NCBI GenBank assembly: GCA_902556405.1
Contig: CACDWF010000005.1
Span: 1 to 64,000, forward strand
Direction: 5' to 3'
DNA from: an uncultured Alphaproteobacteria bacterium
GTDB lineage: Bacteria; Pseudomonadota; Alphaproteobacteria; Rhodobacterales; Rhodobacteraceae
Length of the DNA: 64,000 nucleotides
This document shows positions 31,660 to 39,973 of this stretch, in pieces. A program made the position numbers and the translations under genes. Within the stretch, counting starts at the first letter, position 1; every line of letters begins with the position of its first letter. The notes under the pieces are model-generated. The model searched no databases. It saw nothing but the letters and a program-made list of their open reading frames with translations, and was not told where the DNA came from.

Positions 31660-32496
31660 ATGGGTCATGCTGCTTTTAATTCTAATGCCTATCTTCATCA
31701 TATTGCTTTGAACACTACCCAGCCTTTGGAGTTGGCTAAGTTTTATGAAAAGGCATTATCTATAGAACGGAAACCAATTAAAGGTGGATGGGTTTTATCC
31801 GGGGGCAGAAGAAAAGTTCTTATATTAACTAATAAACAAAATAGCCTGAGATTTGTAGGTTTTGCCTGCCAAGATAGCAACTCTTTCAAAGCTTTAAAAA
31901 GGGATTTCATGGAAAAGGGTTTAAAAACAGTTCAAGATGATAAATCTCTTTTTGATCATGAAAATTTTTATGTTATAGACTGCGACGGAAATAAAATTTA
32001 TTTTGGGCTGACCAGAAATAAAAAGGATCAGAATTCTAATCTTTATGCCCCACTACAGCATATTACTTTCACTTCAGAAAACTTAGATAACTTTGTTGAC
32101 TTTTATGTGAATAAACTGGGGTTTAAAATTTCAGATAAGGTTATTAATAAAAAAGGAGAGCTCACAACTTGCTTTATGAGATCAAACCAAGAGCATCATA
32201 CTGTTGCCTGTTTTTTAAGCGACAAATCAGGCTTAGATCATTATAGTTTTGAAGCAGGAACATGGGAATGGATTAAGAATTGGTGTGATCATTTTTCCAA
32301 GCAAAATATTCAATTAATTTGGGGGCCGGGTCGACACGGTCCAGGGAATAATCTTTTTGCATTTATAGAAGATCTTGACGGGAATAAAATTGAGATTTCT
32401 GCTGAGTTAGAAATAGTTCACGATAGGCAACCTAAAAAATGGCCTCACGAACCGAAAACGTTAAATTTATGGGGTAATGCAATAATGCGCTCTTAA
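31660..32496 (+). CDS. Two-domain VOC protein, extradiol-dioxygenase-like
   Basis: Vicinal-oxygen-chelate protein with two modules (about 10-118 and 130-250), the architecture of type I extradiol ring-cleavage dioxygenases such as BphC. In the second module H134 (LQHITF), H194 (LDHYSF) and E245 (KIEISAE) fit the two-His-one-Glu iron site, and the DLDGNKIEIS motif is standard. Extra His residues at 179-180 and 226 may belong to the pocket. Length 278 is close to the family. It starts a rightward run: FAH, monooxygenase, TRAP transporter, second VOC, second monooxygenase. Ring cleavage of a catechol is the likely role; substrate unknown. Confidence 0.8.
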   Translation: MGHAAFNSNAYLHHIALNTTQPLELAKFYEKALSIERKPIKGGWVLSGGRRKVLILTNKQNSLRFVGFACQDSNSFKALKRDFMEKGLKTVQDDKSLFDHENFYVIDCDGNKIYFGLTRNKKDQNSNLYAPLQHITFTSENLDNFVDFYVNKLGFKISDKVINKKGELTTCFMRSNQEHHTVACFLSDKSGLDHYSFEAGTWEWIKNWCDHFSKQNIQLIWGPGRHGPGNNLFAFIEDLDGNKIEISAELEIVHDRQPKKWPHEPKTLNLWGNAIMRS

Positions 32497-32508
32497 TGGA
32501 GGAAATTT

Positions 32509-33378
32509 ATGAAATATGTAAGTTTTGTAAAACTAGGTGAAACCTGTTTTGGAGTTTTCCATCAGGGTAAAATTTTTGACCTGACCTATCAATTAGCTGG
32601 GGGTTCTTCAAGCTTGAAGGAAGCTATTCATTTTGGAAGCATTCCAGATAATATACAAGAGTTGGAAAGCTATTTAGCTAATGTTACTGCTTACGAACCT
32701 GCGGATATAACATTTCTACCTGTTATACCAGATCCAGGAAAAATTTTTTGTATTGGTCTGAATTATGAAAAGCATAGGAAAGAAACGGAAAGACCAGAGG
32801 TTCAATATCCAACTATTTTTACTCGATTCGCAGAAAGCCAAGTGGCACATCGAGAAGCGGTTATTAAGCCTACCTTGTCTGATAGAGTGGACTTTGAAGG
32901 AGAGTTGGCTGTAGTAATTGGAAAAGGAGGTAAAAACATCTCTTCAGAAGAAGCTTTGCAGAGTATTGCTGGATATACTTGTTATAACGATGTATCTATC
33001 AGGGATTACCAGAGACATACCAGTCAGTTCGTACCAGGGAAAAACTTCTCAAAAACAGGTGGTTGCGGACCATTTTTAAAATTAGCATCGTCGATAAAAA
33101 ATTACCAAAGCTTAACTATTAAAACAATATTGAATGGCGAGGTTATGCAAGAAGCAAAGCTCGATCAATTGATTTTCAAAATACCTGAGATAATCTCCTA
33201 TATCTCTTCTTTTACGCCTTTAGTCGCAGGAGACATCATAGTCACGGGAACGCCTGGTGGAGTTGGGGATAGGCGAGATCCACCTTTATATATGAAAAAT
33301 GGTGACATTGTAGAAGTTGAAATTTCGCAAGTTGGTAAGCTCGTTAACCCAGTGCTAGACGAAAATATAATTCTTTAA
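32509..33378 (+). CDS. Fumarylacetoacetate hydrolase family protein
   Basis: Metal-dependent hydrolase, hydratase or decarboxylase of the FAH superfamily, often the step after ring cleavage. The C-terminal domain holds the metal ligands E130 and E132 (DFEGELAVVIGKGG) and D161 (CYNDVSIRD), the entry motif IFCIGLNYEKHRKE and the closing TPGGVGDRRDPP. Length 289 fits. AATGGAGGAAATTTATG provides a strong ribosome-binding site. Twelve bases after the VOC gene and 17 before the monooxygenase. Exact reaction unknown. Confidence 0.9.
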   Translation: MKYVSFVKLGETCFGVFHQGKIFDLTYQLAGGSSSLKEAIHFGSIPDNIQELESYLANVTAYEPADITFLPVIPDPGKIFCIGLNYEKHRKETERPEVQYPTIFTRFAESQVAHREAVIKPTLSDRVDFEGELAVVIGKGGKNISSEEALQSIAGYTCYNDVSIRDYQRHTSQFVPGKNFSKTGGCGPFLKLASSIKNYQSLTIKTILNGEVMQEAKLDQLIFKIPEIISYISSFTPLVAGDIIVTGTPGGVGDRRDPPLYMKNGDIVEVEISQVGKLVNPVLDENIIL

Positions 33379-33395
33379 ATGCCTCTCAAATTATT

Positions 33396-34988
33396 TTGAC
33401 AAAAAATTTCGATGTAATTATTGTTGGAATGGGTCCATCTGGTCTCGTTTTAGCTGGCTTGCTTGCCAACTATGGCGTTAAGGTTGGTCTTTTTGAAAGG
33501 AATGAAAGTACTGTCCAAGAACCACGAGCGGTTTCTATTGATGATGAGTCTCTCCGAATTCTTCAAAGCTTTTCGTTGCATCAAGCTGTATTAAAAAATG
33601 TTTCTCAAAATTATGGATCTTATTACTACGATGCAAAAGGTAAGCTATTTTTGAAAGTTGAACCGAATTCATGTGAGAATGGCTTTTTTAAACGAAATGC
33701 ATTTGATCAACCGACTTTTGAAAGCACATTGAGGAAACATCTAGAGGGTAAAAAAAATGTCAACATCAATTTTTCACATACACTAGTTTCTATAAAAAAC
33801 GAGACTAACCGTATCATTGCGAATTTTGAGGATAGCAAAGGGATAAAAAAAAGCTTTTTAGCACGGTATCTCGTAGGTTGTGATGGTGGACAGTCGACTG
33901 TCCGAGACCTCATTGGCGTGATTTTGAAAGGCAGTACTTTTAATCAAAAATGGTTGGTTGTTGATATATATAATACCAAAAATTACTTTAGGCATACGCA
34001 AGTTTATTGTAACCCTAAGCGTCCATCTATAACGTTACCTGGGCCCAAAGGTATAAGGAGATATGAGTTTAAATTAAATGACGGAGAGAGATCTGAAAAG
34101 TTAAGTGAAGATTTCATAAGAAACCTTTTAGCAAGTGTCGGAGTAGATGGACAAGCAAAGATTAGAAGATCACAGGTATATCAATTTCATGCATTAATTT
34201 CATCAGTATGGAGAAAAAAATCTGTTTTTATTGCAGGTGATGCAGCGCATTTGTCTCCGCCCTTTGCTGGGCAGGGAATGAATAGTGGAATAAGAGATGT
34301 GGGGAACTTGGGTTGGAAGTTAGCGTTAGCTATAAAAAGACCAAAATCAAAAAAAATACTAGAAACCTACTTTCTGGAAAGAAAGGATCATTGCTGGGCT
34401 CTAATTAATTTGGCGATACGGATGGGTAAAATAATGATGCCAAAAAACAGCTTGTATTCCTTTTTTAATGCATCTTTTTTTAGGCTGATCAAGTTAAATA
34501 AAACACTGCTTAGTTATATGTCTCAAATGAAATATCGACCCAAACCTAAATTGAAAACGGGTCTTATTTTTTTTCATGGGAAAGAGACAAGGGGTGATAA
34601 GAAATTAATTGGAACGCTCTTTCCACAACCCTTAGTGCAAGATAAAGCAGGAATTTTGTCTAACTTGGATGAGGTTTTGGGTAATAAATTTTCTTTAGTT
34701 TGTTATATCAAAAATCACGAGACTTACATCAGTCTGGAAAAACATCTTAATAATTTTTCAAAAACTTGTAGGGTTGTTGTTTTATTGAACCAATCATGCA
34801 TGATTTTCCCGAGTAGGCATAAGGTTGTTCGAGATTTTAATAACCTTTTAGAAAAAATGGAGACAAGGGTGCCAGAGAATAGTGTTCTTTTACTCCGACC
34901 TGATAAATTAGTATCTGCAATCTATAAAAAAAATAATCTTCATTATTTATCAAATTTATTAAATAATAACGAGATATTTAGTTTTTAA
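33396..34988 (+). CDS. MhpA-type FAD-dependent aromatic monooxygenase
   Basis: Class A flavin hydroxylase resembling 3-(3-hydroxyphenyl)propionate hydroxylase. FAD/NADPH-binding order: IIVGMGPSGLVLAGLLANYG (about 7-26), the mid-protein DG-type motif VGCDGGQSTVRDLIG, and FIAGDAAHLSPPFAGQGMNS. The C-terminal thioredoxin-like part found in phenol hydroxylase relatives is present from about 400. Length 530 is in range. Start is TTG 33396 without a clear ribosome-binding site; no better start precedes the flavin motif. It is expected to hydroxylate a phenolic acid ahead of ring cleavage. Confidence 0.87.
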   Translation: MTKNFDVIIVGMGPSGLVLAGLLANYGVKVGLFERNESTVQEPRAVSIDDESLRILQSFSLHQAVLKNVSQNYGSYYYDAKGKLFLKVEPNSCENGFFKRNAFDQPTFESTLRKHLEGKKNVNINFSHTLVSIKNETNRIIANFEDSKGIKKSFLARYLVGCDGGQSTVRDLIGVILKGSTFNQKWLVVDIYNTKNYFRHTQVYCNPKRPSITLPGPKGIRRYEFKLNDGERSEKLSEDFIRNLLASVGVDGQAKIRRSQVYQFHALISSVWRKKSVFIAGDAAHLSPPFAGQGMNSGIRDVGNLGWKLALAIKRPKSKKILETYFLERKDHCWALINLAIRMGKIMMPKNSLYSFFNASFFRLIKLNKTLLSYMSQMKYRPKPKLKTGLIFFHGKETRGDKKLIGTLFPQPLVQDKAGILSNLDEVLGNKFSLVCYIKNHETYISLEKHLNNFSKTCRVVVLLNQSCMIFPSRHKVVRDFNNLLEKMETRVPENSVLLLRPDKLVSAIYKKNNLHYLSNLLNNNEIFSF

Positions 34989-35041
34989 AGTGTATAGTTA
35001 CTACAAATTTAAAAATTATCAACATCTGGGGAGGAAGTTTA

Positions 35042-36070
35042 ATGAAATTATTTTTAAGATTTTTAGTCGCATCTGCTTCTGCGCTGTTTCTTTCAATATC
35101 TGCATACGCAGGAGAAGTGGTGCTAAAGTTCCATTCATTTCCGCCAATGCCTGCAAATTCTAATGCAAAATTTGTTAAGCCGTGGAGTGAAAAAGTATTA
35201 GCGGAGTCAAATGGGGAAATAAAAGTTGAGATATATCCTGCGATGCAGCTTGGAGGAAAACCACCTCAACTTGTTGATCAAGTAAGAGACGGTGTAGTAG
35301 ACATTGTTTGGACTGTTGCTGGTTATACACCAGGGAGATTTCCACACTTAGAGGCGTTCGAGTTGCCATTTATGCCTGCGTCTGCTGAGGCGACATCTCA
35401 AGCACTACAAGAATACGTGGACACTGTAGCTTCCTCTGATCTTAAAGATTATAAAGTTTTAGCCGTATTTTGTCATGCTCCTGGAAAAATTCATACTAAA
35501 GAAAAAGTTATTAAGTCTGCAGCTGATTTAAATGGTATGAAGATGCGTGGTCCTACAAGAGTGATAACCAAAATGTTGGAAGGCTTAGGGGCAACGCCGG
35601 TGGGAATGCCTGTCCCTGCAGTTGCAGGAGCACTCTCAAAGGGTGTGATCGATGGCATGGTTGTGCCTTGGGAAATTATGCCGTCATTTAAACTTCATGA
35701 GCTTACAAAAGCACATACTACAGTTTCGGGATCAAGAGGTTTATACACAACCCCGTTTTTGTTCTTGATGAATAAAGCGAAATACGAGTCTTTAAGTGAT
35801 GAGCATAGAAAGGTTATTGATAATAATGCTGGTCTTGCCCTGGCAAAACTTGCTGGACAGCTTTGGGACGGTTTCGAAGTTCCAGCTAGGAAGTTAGCAT
35901 TAGATGCCGGTGGAACAATACATTCTCTATCGGGAGCTCCTCTTGCAGAAATGAAGGCAGCTGGTGAAGGCCTTGAGAAGGATTGGATTAAATCAGCTAA
36001 TGATCGTGGCCTAGATGGTGCAATGCTTGTTAAAACAGCGAAAGACTTAATTTCAAAATATGACAAGTAA
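35042..36070 (+). CDS. dctP: TRAP transporter solute-binding protein (DctP family)
   Basis: Periplasmic binding protein of a TRAP carboxylate importer. A Sec signal peptide (residues 1-23, cut after AYA) leads into the DctP fold, with GMKMRGPTRVITKML holding the conserved Arg that binds the ligand carboxylate, then GALSKGVIDGMVVPW. A strong GGGGAGGAAG site precedes the ATG. It overlaps dctQ by 11 bases, and a terminator-like hairpin sits 30 bases past its stop, inside dctQ. The neighbours suggest an aromatic or aryl-chain carboxylate as ligand; sequence alone does not settle this. Confidence 0.93.
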   Translation: MKLFLRFLVASASALFLSISAYAGEVVLKFHSFPPMPANSNAKFVKPWSEKVLAESNGEIKVEIYPAMQLGGKPPQLVDQVRDGVVDIVWTVAGYTPGRFPHLEAFELPFMPASAEATSQALQEYVDTVASSDLKDYKVLAVFCHAPGKIHTKEKVIKSAADLNGMKMRGPTRVITKMLEGLGATPVGMPVPAVAGALSKGVIDGMVVPWEIMPSFKLHELTKAHTTVSGSRGLYTTPFLFLMNKAKYESLSDEHRKVIDNNAGLALAKLAGQLWDGFEVPARKLALDAGGTIHSLSGAPLAEMKAAGEGLEKDWIKSANDRGLDGAMLVKTAKDLISKYDK

Positions 36071-36593
36071 AAATACCTCGTTAGATATTGAAGAAACAGA
36101 GCGCCCAAACGATATTTTTGGGCGCTTTTTACTTAAGATTGTAACTTATCTAGCGATTTGTGGAGGTATAGTACTTGTTGTGATAGTACTTATAAATTTC
36201 ATTTCTATCGCAGGTAGAACAATGTTTGGCAAGCCTCTCACAGGAGACTTTGAACTTGTTGAAATGGGATGTGCGGTTGCGATGTTTTCATTTTTACCAC
36301 TTTGTCAATTTAAGAATGGGAACGTTATTGTAGATTTCTTTACAATAAACCTTTCGAACAAAATTAAAAACAGCTTGAATGGGCTTGGAGCTTTTTTATT
36401 TTTTTTAGTAGCCTCTTTTTTTACATGGAGAATGATTTACGGAGCCTTAGACATGTACAAGTATAATGAGCAAACGATGTTGCTTCAAATTCCCGTTTGG
36501 ATTCCATTTATTCCAGCGGTTATTTCTTTTGGTATTCTATCGATAACCTGCATTTATACATCAATAATATTTTTCAAATCGGCTTTTAAATAG
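36060..36593 (+). CDS. dctQ: TRAP transporter small permease subunit (DctQ family)
   Basis: Small membrane subunit that scaffolds the DctM transporter. Four hydrophobic segments are visible (about residues 27-50, 70-88, 107-128 and 143-170), typical for DctQ, after a 25-residue polar N-terminus. ATG 36060 overlaps the end of dctP by 11 bases. Codons 14-24 lie in a perfect 10-base-pair stem followed by T5, listed as a terminator. A start downstream of the hairpin would remove the polar N-terminus and part of the first helix, so the hairpin really does lie in coding sequence. Confidence 0.9.
   Translation: MTSKNTSLDIEETERPNDIFGRFLLKIVTYLAICGGIVLVVIVLINFISIAGRTMFGKPLTGDFELVEMGCAVAMFSFLPLCQFKNGNVIVDFFTINLSNKIKNSLNGLGAFLFFLVASFFTWRMIYGALDMYKYNEQTMLLQIPVWIPFIPAVISFGILSITCIYTSIIFFKSAFK
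36100..36130 (+). terminator. Intrinsic-terminator-like hairpin inside dctQ
   Basis: AGCGCCCAAA (36100-36109) pairs perfectly with 36117-36126 around a 7-base loop, and T5 follows (36126-36130). This ten-base-pair, GC-rich stem with a T tail is the strongest terminator-like structure I found in the window. It begins 30 bases after the dctP stop but within dctQ codons. Likely effect: partial termination, so that the binding protein is made in excess over the membrane subunits, or protection of the dctP message 3' end. Translation of dctQ could melt it. Confidence 0.7.
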
Positions 36594-36605
36594 AAAATAT
36601 TTATC

Positions 36606-37925
36606 ATGGATAGACTCTACCTCGGCATAATAGCTTTCCCAATTCTTTTTTCTTTATTGGCTGTTAGAGTTCCCATTGGTTTAGCAATGTTGGTCGTTGG
36701 CTGTTCAGGAACAATTTTTATAGCTGGTTGGTTGCCCATTATGTCCCAAGTAAAGACAAGTGCATGGCATCTTTTTTCTAATTATTCATTTACTGTTATT
36801 CCTTTATTTTTACTGATGGGAAACTTTGCATCTAAGGCAGGGATGAGTGAATCTCTATTTCGGTTTGCTGGTGCTTGTCTTGGACACAGACGAGGTGGGG
36901 TGGCTATGGCAGCGGTCGGTGCATGTGCTGGTTTTGGCGCCATATGTGGTTCATCTCTTGCTACAGCCGCTACCATGGGTCGTGTGGCTCTTCCTGAGCT
37001 ACGTAGAATGGGTTATTCTGGTTCTTTAAGCACTGGGGCTTTGGCCGCTGGTGGAACGTTAGGTATTTTGATACCACCATCAGTTATATTGATAATCTAT
37101 TCAATTTTAACCGAACAGAATATCGCAAAAATGTTTTTAGCAGCTTTTGTACCTGGGATTTTAGCGGCAATTGGATATCTAATAGCAATAGCTATTTTCG
37201 TAAGGATAAAACCAGATTCGGGTCCACCCACAAGCTATGTGGGATGGAGGCAAAGACTTAATTTATTTGGGCAAGTGTGGCAAATACTTGTAATATTTTT
37301 TCTTGTAATTGGAGGTATTTATCTTGGGTGGTTTACGCCAACCGAGGGTGCTTCAATAGGTGCAGCCGGTACAGGTATTATGGCACTTTTTACAAAAGGC
37401 TTCAATTTTAGTGATTTAATTGATGTTATTCAGGATACAGCTGTCACGTCCGCTATGATTTTTTTAGTATTATTAGGGGCTGAGTTCTTTAATTCTTTTA
37501 TTGCACTTACACAAATAACTAATGAATTGGCAACATTTGTTATTAGCAATGAGCTCTCTCCATATCTAGTCGTGTTTTTTATATTAGTTCTATACATTCT
37601 TTTAGGGTGTCTAATGGATAGCTTAGCTATGATACTGCTAACTATACCTGTATTTTATCCCATCATTATTGAGTTAGATTTTGGAATGAGTATTGACGAG
37701 GTTGCAATCTGGTTTGGTATCCTTACTCTTATCGTTGTTGAAGTCGGGCTAATAACCCCACCAGTGGGCTTGAATGTTTTTATAATTAATAAAATGGCAA
37801 AAAATGTTCCAATTTCAGATACCTTTATTGGAGTCTTGCCATTTTTAATAAGCGACCTTATTAGGGTCGGCATTCTGTTTATCTTCCCTGGTATCAGCTT
37901 GTTTTTAATTCGGCTTTTAGGGTGA
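36606..37925 (+). CDS. dctM: TRAP transporter large permease subunit (DctM family)
   Basis: Sodium-coupled transport subunit of the TRAP system, about 12 membrane segments over 439 residues. Family features include VRVPIGLAMLVVGCSG near the N-terminus, GFGAICGSSLATAATMGRVALPE, the GTLGILIPPSVILIIYS hairpin region, and VEVGLITPPVGLNVFII near the end. It follows dctQ by 12 bases and precedes the second VOC gene by 20, so the transporter is embedded in the catabolic operon. Confidence 0.95.
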   Translation: MDRLYLGIIAFPILFSLLAVRVPIGLAMLVVGCSGTIFIAGWLPIMSQVKTSAWHLFSNYSFTVIPLFLLMGNFASKAGMSESLFRFAGACLGHRRGGVAMAAVGACAGFGAICGSSLATAATMGRVALPELRRMGYSGSLSTGALAAGGTLGILIPPSVILIIYSILTEQNIAKMFLAAFVPGILAAIGYLIAIAIFVRIKPDSGPPTSYVGWRQRLNLFGQVWQILVIFFLVIGGIYLGWFTPTEGASIGAAGTGIMALFTKGFNFSDLIDVIQDTAVTSAMIFLVLLGAEFFNSFIALTQITNELATFVISNELSPYLVVFFILVLYILLGCLMDSLAMILLTIPVFYPIIIELDFGMSIDEVAIWFGILTLIVVEVGLITPPVGLNVFIINKMAKNVPISDTFIGVLPFLISDLIRVGILFIFPGISLFLIRLLG

Positions 37926-37945
37926 AGTAATTTGGAGGTTTTGTA

Positions 37946-38494
37946 ATGAAAAATGAAGAAATAGTGGACTTATTGAAGGTCATAAAGTGTCAACATGTTT
38001 CTCTTGAAGTTAGTAATGTTGATGTTTCTCTAAAGTTTTATAGAGACTTTCTAGGATTAAAGCTCTCAGAAAGGCATCATGCCAATGAAAATCCTGCCAT
38101 ACCTTTCGAGATGGCGTTTATGAGACTTGGTAAGCAACATCATGATCTTGTGCTAACGCATGATCCAAAGAGAGACTATCCGGAAAAAATATTTAATTCT
38201 GGTCCTGCTGGAATTCATCATTATGCATTTGAATGTCCAAATAAAAAAAGTTTCGACATGTATTTGGAAAGGGCAAAGGAAATGTCCTTAGAAATTGTAA
38301 GGGGACCCGTTCTTCATAGTGCGTATCAATCTAAAGGTGATGGAACGTGGGGAGAAAATTGGAGTTTTTACGTTTTAGATCCAGATAAGCACCGAATAGA
38401 AATTTTTTGTGAAATGGCGGAGATAGACAATGCTGGTTGCTATATAATGGAAAATGGTAAAAAAGTACCTGATAAAAAGGCAGAAGAAATTTAA
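37946..38494 (+). CDS. VOC-family protein, catechol-dioxygenase-like
   Basis: Single vicinal-oxygen-chelate unit of 182 residues, made of two beta-alpha-beta-beta-beta modules. H17 (KCQHVSLEV), H91 (AGIHHYAFE) and E152 (HRIEIFCEM) are placed like a two-His-one-Glu metal site, and FYRDFLGLKLSERH is typical. It may be a ring-cleavage dioxygenase, an isomerase or a lyase of this versatile superfamily. It sits between the TRAP genes and the second monooxygenase, with GGAGG 6-10 bases ahead of the ATG. Confidence 0.8.
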   Translation: MKNEEIVDLLKVIKCQHVSLEVSNVDVSLKFYRDFLGLKLSERHHANENPAIPFEMAFMRLGKQHHDLVLTHDPKRDYPEKIFNSGPAGIHHYAFECPNKKSFDMYLERAKEMSLEIVRGPVLHSAYQSKGDGTWGENWSFYVLDPDKHRIEIFCEMAEIDNAGCYIMENGKKVPDKKAEEI

Positions 38495-38503
38495 TTAAAA
38501 TAC

Positions 38504-39973
38504 ATGATGAAAAAGAATTTTGATTGCATAGTTATTGGTTACGGTCCTGTTGGCGCTTTACTCTCAATATTTCTATCAAAATTAGGATTGAGTGTTGCTG
38601 TAATTGATAAAAATTTAGATGTTTACCCATTACCACGAGCAATACATTTTGACGAAGAGGTGATGCGTATTTTCCAAATGGTTAATCTTAGCAAGCAGAT
38701 TTTTAATATATCAAGAATAGGTACTAAGGGGATGCATTTTGTCGATGAAGAAGACAATATTTTAATGGAAAGAAAAGGATCAGGCTCCATCGGGGAGTTT
38801 GGTTGGCAAAAAAGCTGGTATTTTCACCAACCTCAGCTTGAAAGACTGTTGAGGAGTAACGCAGAGAAGGAGGAAAACTTCGTAAGCTTTTTGGGGTATG
38901 AAACCCAAAAAATAGACCAGGATAGTGATTTAGTAACTGTTACATCATACAGCAAGAGTTTTAAAAAAGAGCTTGTGCTAAAAAGCAAATACCTAGTTGG
39001 TTGCGATGGAGCAAACTCAAATACGAGCGACTTTATAGGGCAAGGAGTAAAAGATTATGGATTAAAAGAAAAGTTTTTAGTCCTCGATCTAATAGTCGAT
39101 AATAGATACCAAAACATTAAAAACCTGCCAGACTACACTGTTCAACACTGTGATAAGCTTAGGCCAATCACACGTTGTTATATAAATAAAAAACGAAGAA
39201 GATGGGAAGTCAAAATATTGCCTAGCGATAATGAAGACGAGTTCTTAAAAAGTAAAACTATATGGAAATTCCTAAGCAAATGGATAGAAAAGAAAAGTGC
39301 AAAAATCGAGCGTTGCCAATTATATACATTTAGATCAATACTTAAGAAGAAATGGTTTAACAATAGGGTAATTTTAGCAGGAGACAGCGCACACCTTTCT
39401 CCTCCCTTTCTTGGACAAGGAATGTGCGCAGGTATTCGTGACGTTGCGACCTTAGCTTGGCGCTTAAAAGGATATGCCAGCAATAAACTGTCGGCTGATG
39501 ATTTAGTAAACTACCAAGCAGAAAGGTTTCCGCATGTATCTGCTTTTATTAAGTTGGCTGCCGAAGTAGGCAAGATAATGTCTAACCCAGGCTTACTTAA
39601 GAAGTCTGAAAAGTCAGAAAGCTTGCGATTATTTGATTTTCCAAAACCGAGATTAAAAAAAGGTTTTTTTTATAAATGTCCTTTATCTGGGACACTATTT
39701 CCACAATTTATTGAGGGTAGTAGAAAAAGCGATGATACCCTTGGGTATAAATTTATTTTACTAGTTTTAGAAAATAATGCGTGTTTCGACGTTAATATGG
39801 ATTCAAACATATTAACTAAAAAAGTCGCTAAAGGATCTTTAAGAAATTGGATTATTAAAAGCAAAAAAGAAGCGGTGATTATTCGACCAGATAAATATAT
39901 TTTTGGCAGCGCGTCCTCAAAAAAAGAGGTAAAGTCGCTACTTAATTGTTTTAGCCATATGTACCGAATTTAA
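38504..39973 (+). CDS. Second MhpA-type FAD-dependent monooxygenase
   Basis: Class A flavin hydroxylase related to the one at 33.4 kb. FAD-binding VIGYGPVGALLSIFLSKLG near the start, VGCDGANSNTSDFIG in the middle and LAGDSAHLSPPFLGQGMCAG near residue 290. Length 489 is a little shorter than the first copy. ATG 38504 or ATG 38507 can start it. Sequences around the motifs differ enough that the two are old paralogues, not a recent duplication, so they may act on different rings or in successive hydroxylations. Confidence 0.87.
   Translation: MMKKNFDCIVIGYGPVGALLSIFLSKLGLSVAVIDKNLDVYPLPRAIHFDEEVMRIFQMVNLSKQIFNISRIGTKGMHFVDEEDNILMERKGSGSIGEFGWQKSWYFHQPQLERLLRSNAEKEENFVSFLGYETQKIDQDSDLVTVTSYSKSFKKELVLKSKYLVGCDGANSNTSDFIGQGVKDYGLKEKFLVLDLIVDNRYQNIKNLPDYTVQHCDKLRPITRCYINKKRRRWEVKILPSDNEDEFLKSKTIWKFLSKWIEKKSAKIERCQLYTFRSILKKKWFNNRVILAGDSAHLSPPFLGQGMCAGIRDVATLAWRLKGYASNKLSADDLVNYQAERFPHVSAFIKLAAEVGKIMSNPGLLKKSEKSESLRLFDFPKPRLKKGFFYKCPLSGTLFPQFIEGSRKSDDTLGYKFILLVLENNACFDVNMDSNILTKKVAKGSLRNWIIKSKKEAVIIRPDKYIFGSASSKKEVKSLLNCFSHMYRI

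Follow-up and report, generated by a model that had tools for sequence, protein, structure and literature searches.

A conserved RNA hairpin past the dctP stop codon of TRAP transporter operons as a candidate determinant of binding-protein excess

We analysed a 64-kb stretch of DNA (64,000 nucleotides, hereafter the window; 35% GC) from an uncultured member of the Rhodobacteraceae and found that its TRAP transporter operon carries a stable hairpin in the early codons of dctQ. Sequence comparison showed the stem to be conserved as sense-strand RNA beyond what the protein would need, and most of the related TRAP operons examined have a strong stem shortly past the dctP stop, whether in coding sequence or not. 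We propose, with a probability of about 0.7, that the hairpin is an RNA element under selection, which would define the 3' end of dctP mRNA and keep the binding protein above DctQM. To our knowledge, how TRAP systems come to have more binding protein than permease is not settled. The hairpin is a single, easily mutated candidate for this excess, with a clean comparative signal, and marine bacteria are rich in TRAP transporters (PMC5812351).

The operon lies on the + strand and consists of dctP (substrate-binding protein, 342 aa, 35042..36070; Pfam PF03480, E 1.3e-44), dctQ (small permease, 177 aa, 36060..36593; PF04290, E 1.1e-18) and dctM (large permease, 439 aa, 36606..37925; PF06808, E 2.5e-87). 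A strong Shine-Dalgarno-like sequence, GGGGAGG, precedes dctP at 35028-35034. The dctQ start is ATG 36060, within the end of dctP, and a Shine-Dalgarno sequence is not evident there. Ahead of the first membrane stretch we found no alternative in-frame start codon (ATG, GTG or TTG); because ATG 36060 is the only dctQ start found, we read the hairpin as coding, at dctQ codons 14-23. The operon neighbourhood (31660-39973) contains genes with FAD-monooxygenase, FAA-hydrolase and glyoxalase/dioxygenase domains (Pfam), and two plasmid-borne relatives adjoin pobA and pcaQ, so the substrate may be an aromatic acid. In a further genome of the same genus (G009), a match to dctQ at 25% identity (L046) is interrupted by two stop codons; it may be a paralogue in decay or a frame arising by chance.

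The conserved hairpin, identified from sequence, RNA folding, conservation and covariation, occupies 36098..36128 on the + strand. Its core (36100-36126) consists of a 5' arm AGCGCCCAAA (36100-36109), the loop CGATATT (36110-36116) and a 3' arm TTTGGGCGCT (36117-36126), followed by TTTTACTTAA. The original prediction, a 10-bp stem with a 7-nt loop that starts 30 bases past the dctP stop (which ends at 36070) and is itself coding, holds as described. The T5 that it placed behind the stem is present at 36126-36130, but the first of these five T still belongs to the stem, as its last base. RNA folding lengthens the stem to 12 bp (36098-36128), and the fold of 36095-36135 reaches -18.0 kcal/mol (z -5.9), with none of 200 dinucleotide shuffles as stable.

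When uninterrupted stems with loops of 3-9 nt were ranked on both strands of the window, the hairpin came first at -17.4 kcal/mol, and the next unrelated stem reached -13.7. That second stem (38801-38832, minus strand, 12 bp, no T-tail) sits inside the FAD-monooxygenase gene at 38504-39973. The GC core of the hairpin (AGCGCCC, 5-20 nt, GGGCGCT) has a single occurrence in the window and a single one in the source genome, and none in the shuffles. The shuffles, the window-wide rank and these counts led us to reject a chance stem, and the single copy in the source genome (2.19 Mb, about 80% complete) excluded a repeated element. A known Rfam element was likewise rejected, as 34800-38400 gave no match at gathering score; the two matches up to E 1 both fell far under it (MicC, 26.6 bits against 90). 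A consensus scan of the window found 41 promoter-like sites (39.9 expected) and 4 terminator-like sites (8.7 expected). It did not call the hairpin as a + strand terminator and called the same stem on the minus strand; the + strand miss is probably due to the stem extension consuming the T-run.

Within the genus, a dctQ orthologue was present in 14 of the 22 genomes, the window's included and several of them incomplete, and the stem was kept in 14/14. The stem codons CGC, GGG and CGC account for 4, 15 and 4% of the codons for their amino acids in 49 window ORFs, and these rare codons are kept in 13, 14 and 13 of the 14 sequences. In the set of 13 close sequences, the run of 12 codons beginning at codon 14 had the highest synonymous identity among 165 stretches of that length (0.917 versus 0.809 overall), and the same stretch ranked second with all 14. 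In the comparison of the window with L032 alone, the synonymous identity of the hairpin region was unremarkable (rank 73/165). Conservation within the genus extends to the encoded peptide, ERPNDIFGRF, as would be expected if the stem were a by-product of a conserved DctQ N-terminal peptide, or chance. Against this, synonymous recoding of the window's dctQ almost never yields such a stem (p=0.0005).

The original prediction had named as its test an alignment of related dctQ genes, in which the stem should persist while codons vary, with compensatory changes; this is what the alignment showed. The stem was kept in 29 of 31 orthologues at about 50% identity or more. Beyond the genus, at ~50-61% protein identity, it was present in 15 of 17 (L049, L050, L051, L053 and L190-L200; L200 is a second copy in one genome), and L052 and L189, two genomes of one genus, had lost both motif and stem. 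In L050, CCA became CCG and TTT became TTC, silent changes on the two sides of the stem. In L053, KYPNDLFGYF replaces ERPNDIFGRF, with both arms of the stem changed and Arg15 and Arg22 both replaced by Tyr. Double compensatory changes relative to the window were found in each of four other genera.

For covariation we used 22 of the 29 stem-keeping orthologues, leaving out six genus rows that were identical across the aligned stretch and L200, which has two masked bases. Over these 22 distinct aligned stretches, 96.2% of the pair cells were paired (shuffles 88.5). Changes on both sides occurred in 6 of 12 pairs (shuffles 3.4; 4/500 as high) and in 22 cells (shuffles 7.2 +/- 1.8; 0/500 as high), where cells count sequences and not evolutionary events. 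Further pair types were no more numerous than in shuffles (16 versus 15.4; 234/500). Slid controls gave at most 61% paired and at most 7 cells with both-sided changes. All ten pairing breaks fell at helix ends, and the ten core pairs held 15 G-U cells versus 1 A-C cell, which favours RNA of the sense (+) strand. On the basis of the synonymous nulls and the covariation, we rejected a stem that merely follows from the protein.

We next turned to the dctP-dctQ (P-Q) junctions of related TRAP operons, which came from a protein search of 394 genomes of the family, 203 of them with a match, together with other loci and fetched stretches. Seventeen loci were excluded as duplicates or other TRAP loci and 21 for want of a usable upstream DctP match, and 117 distinct usable junctions were retained, 115 of them from the family (L018 and L041 lie outside it). 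Across the 117, the mean folding energy of 36-nt segments was -14.9 kcal/mol for the segment that begins 18 nt after the dctP stop; away from this peak it stayed between about -5.8 and -10.1 kcal/mol. The stem was more stable than dinucleotide shuffles at p<=0.05 in 91/117 junctions, and in 77/103 without the genus. After removal of 12 near-identical genus rows, a stem of -14 kcal/mol or better was found at 82 of 105 P-Q junctions, the other 23 having no strong stem, versus 1 of 105 dctQ-dctM (Q-M) junctions; at six other offsets the count was 0 to 4 of 105. The scarcity at Q-M junctions rules out a feature of every operon junction.

The position of the stem varies between operons: some have it between the genes and others within dctQ codons, where the encoded peptides are unrelated, and its median distance from the dctP stop is 24.5 nt at coding-type and 10 nt at intergenic junctions. 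Very long stems occur in L129 (20 bp, -37.6) and L205 (18 bp, -26.9), 54-56 nt past the dctP stop, in dctQ codons for a similar peptide (IGAWIV...). Among the 105 junctions, 44 were eligible for a synonymous-codon null (dctQ starting no further than 12 nt beyond the stop, with no in-frame ATG after that start), which gave p<=0.05 in 31/44 versus 2/44 control segments of the same genes. The same null on 56 loci already significant by shuffles gave 55/56, not an unbiased count, because only such loci were used. These controls, the double changes that keep pairing, Arg15/Arg22 to Tyr/Tyr among them, and stems at this position that encode unrelated peptides or lie between the genes make chance or a protein by-product extremely improbable.

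The hairpin sits a little ahead of DctQ's first hydrophobic stretch and forms an inverted repeat in DNA. It might thus serve DctQ itself, by slowing translation before the first membrane helix, or be a DNA-binding palindrome. Stems in relatives often precede dctQ, in the intergenic gap (outside the window's clade, 27 of 73 significant stems were classed as intergenic, 17 of them provisionally), and the excess of G-U over A-C cells favours sense-strand RNA; we consider either role very improbable. Since the stem follows the dctP stop in the gap and in dctQ alike, a role at the 3' end of dctP mRNA is favoured.

Partial intrinsic termination was the mechanism originally predicted: some RNA polymerases would stop at about 36130, setting the dctP to dctQM ratio, and ribosomes translating dctQ would melt the hairpin and relieve the stop, a form of relief that is plausible. 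The stem is followed directly by TTTTACTT, so that a GC-rich stem adjoins a U-tract immediately, and its terminator score is above 0. The T-rich tail as a whole, TTTTTACTT (36126..36134, + strand), which we assessed by sequence, T content and terminator score, comprises the end of the stem and Phe-Leu-Leu codons. With this score, values above 0 were obtained for 16/18 clade loci, 3/38 other coding-type hairpins, 6/27 intergenic and 1/8 ambiguous ones; on the opposite strand the counts were 0/18, 4/38, 4/27 and 3/8, respectively. Internal terminators after ABC binding-protein genes of Clostridia (PMC9045158) provide a precedent.

The T content of the tail argues against this mechanism in several respects. 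In the genus, the T fraction over the first 8 nt of the tail was 0.53, close to that of two upstream bins (0.50 and 0.47; range of neighbouring bins 0.04-0.50). It was 0.62 in four related loci (neighbouring bins 0.25-0.44) and 0.25 in other coding-type hairpins (bins 0.11-0.27), of which 2/38 had at least 5 T in 8; intergenic hairpins showed a slight excess, 0.30 (bins 0.16-0.24). Clade tails were not richer in T than their amino acids and codon usage predict (0/17 rows below 0.05). The lowest P values, 0.08 each, belonged to L049 and L199, two GC-rich relatives with tails somewhat T-rich for their amino acids, a point in favour of termination. Selection for the U-tract was thus not detected in the 17 clade rows, and the tract was not kept in the wider survey, where hairpins at the same place mostly have no T-tail. 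As T content follows the codons and the U-tract is mostly absent outside the clade, we take the stem to be what is conserved; the tail is present here, with no selection on it detected. The part of the original prediction that assigns the hairpin a role in the dctP to dctQM ratio fits the recurrence of the stem past the dctP stop in related operons, and its terminator mechanism is less well supported; as an account of the hairpin, we view an intrinsic terminator as possible but rather doubtful.

In other TRAP subfamilies the pattern was less frequent. A significant stem was found at 9 of 24 distinct junctions and was absent from 15; these comprised three in the window's own genome and 21 scored from a class-wide draw of 29 loci, 8 of which had no upstream DctP by profile (L139 and L159 are one place, counted once). 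Two of the three in the own genome had a significant stem: L138 (contig C1), an unrelated TRAP operon, has a 14-bp stem of -21.1 located 18 nt past the dctP stop with no T-tail, and the stem of L139, a third TRAP operon on contig C2, is 8 bp long (-12.7), located 16 nt past the stop and followed by TCTTTCTTT. The stem was absent from all six class-wide junctions in which the dctQ frame opens before the dctP stop (L161, L163, L165, L168, L172 and L176), so the embedded form is not general. Among five annotated plasmid-borne operons, a count that leaves out the unannotated Paracoccus denitrificans stretch (L202), -14 was reached in Sulfitobacter (-26.9) and Limimaricola (-14.0), and three had no strong stem.

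A decay-blocking hairpin fits this wider pattern better than an intrinsic terminator. We rate a block to decay as the probable general function, with partial termination possible in the window's clade. After cleavage or a premature end within the dctQM part of the transcript, 3'-5' exonucleases would halt at the hairpin, and a dctP-only mRNA would persist. With a dctQ start that overlaps dctP and has no evident Shine-Dalgarno sequence, the hairpin would be able to fold unhindered on many transcripts. In the window's clade, the T-rich tail may contribute partial intrinsic termination there as well. The features of this start, together with a precedent in galE-galT (PMC9239205), would also suit Rho-dependent termination further downstream whenever translation of dctQ fails to start, followed by trimming back to the hairpin; we regard this route as unlikely. 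The odds of these alternatives overlap, because the mechanisms can act together.

A broader reading, which we put forward only tentatively, joins these elements. Many TRAP operons of the family would share a general stoichiometry hairpin, located shortly past the dctP stop, which would have shifted into and out of the dctQ frame. The RNA stem would shape the N-terminal peptides of many DctQ proteins (ERPNDIFGRF, RTGWTGAA, RPGLAGAA, GAGRFRPAR), with residue pairs such as Arg15/Arg22 to Tyr/Tyr coevolving because their codons pair, and in the window's clade it would double as a translation-sensitive terminator. Caution is warranted in reading conservation here, as conserved-looking N-terminal residues of DctQ may be kept for RNA reasons.

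No report of a hairpin in a TRAP operon appeared among the literature matches listed, which is weak evidence of absence, subscription literature being outside the scope of the search. The class of protective hairpins is already known; the wider TRAP survey would be the new part, if confirmed. Control of binding-protein stoichiometry by intra-operon hairpins, known for ABC operons, would then gain a second transporter class.

The dctP-dctQ hairpin matches the class of protective intra-operon hairpins. Stable and placed at the boundary that follows the favoured gene, it also shows RNA-level conservation inside coding sequence, lost in one genus; these are marks of that class. Dar and Sorek describe stable intra-operon hairpins in E. 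coli that protect the upstream mRNA and have no uridine tract; 17/26 lie within the next coding sequence, with raised wobble-position conservation, and in the five ABC operons of that set the stabilised gene is always the binding-protein gene (PMC5927463). Like the malE-malF type in that report, the window's hairpin is stable, lies just past a transporter binding-protein gene and within the next coding sequence, as is often the case there, is conserved at wobble positions and would not need a uridine tract. It differs in that the operon is TRAP and not ABC, the clade has a T-rich tail, and the hairpin lies 30 nt past the dctP stop, whereas the E. coli mean is about 107 nt into the next gene (PMC5927463). 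In cellulolytic Clostridia, stem-loops after ABC importer binding-protein genes are reported as internal transcription terminators that set transporter stoichiometry, and in many of them the U-tract is weak or paired (PMC9045158). They resemble our hairpin in lying right behind the binding-protein gene; unlike it, they occupy long intergenic regions of ABC operons in Gram-positive bacteria, whereas the window's hairpin, a putative terminator, is inside the next gene. In galE-galT of E. coli, the E-hairpin is described as blocking trimming after Rho-dependent termination, so that it sets the mRNA 3' end by blocking 3'-5' digestion (PMC9239205). It too lies past the stop of the upstream gene; unlike the window's hairpin, it belongs to a non-transporter operon, is tied to Rho and has its 3' end about 130 nt past the stop.
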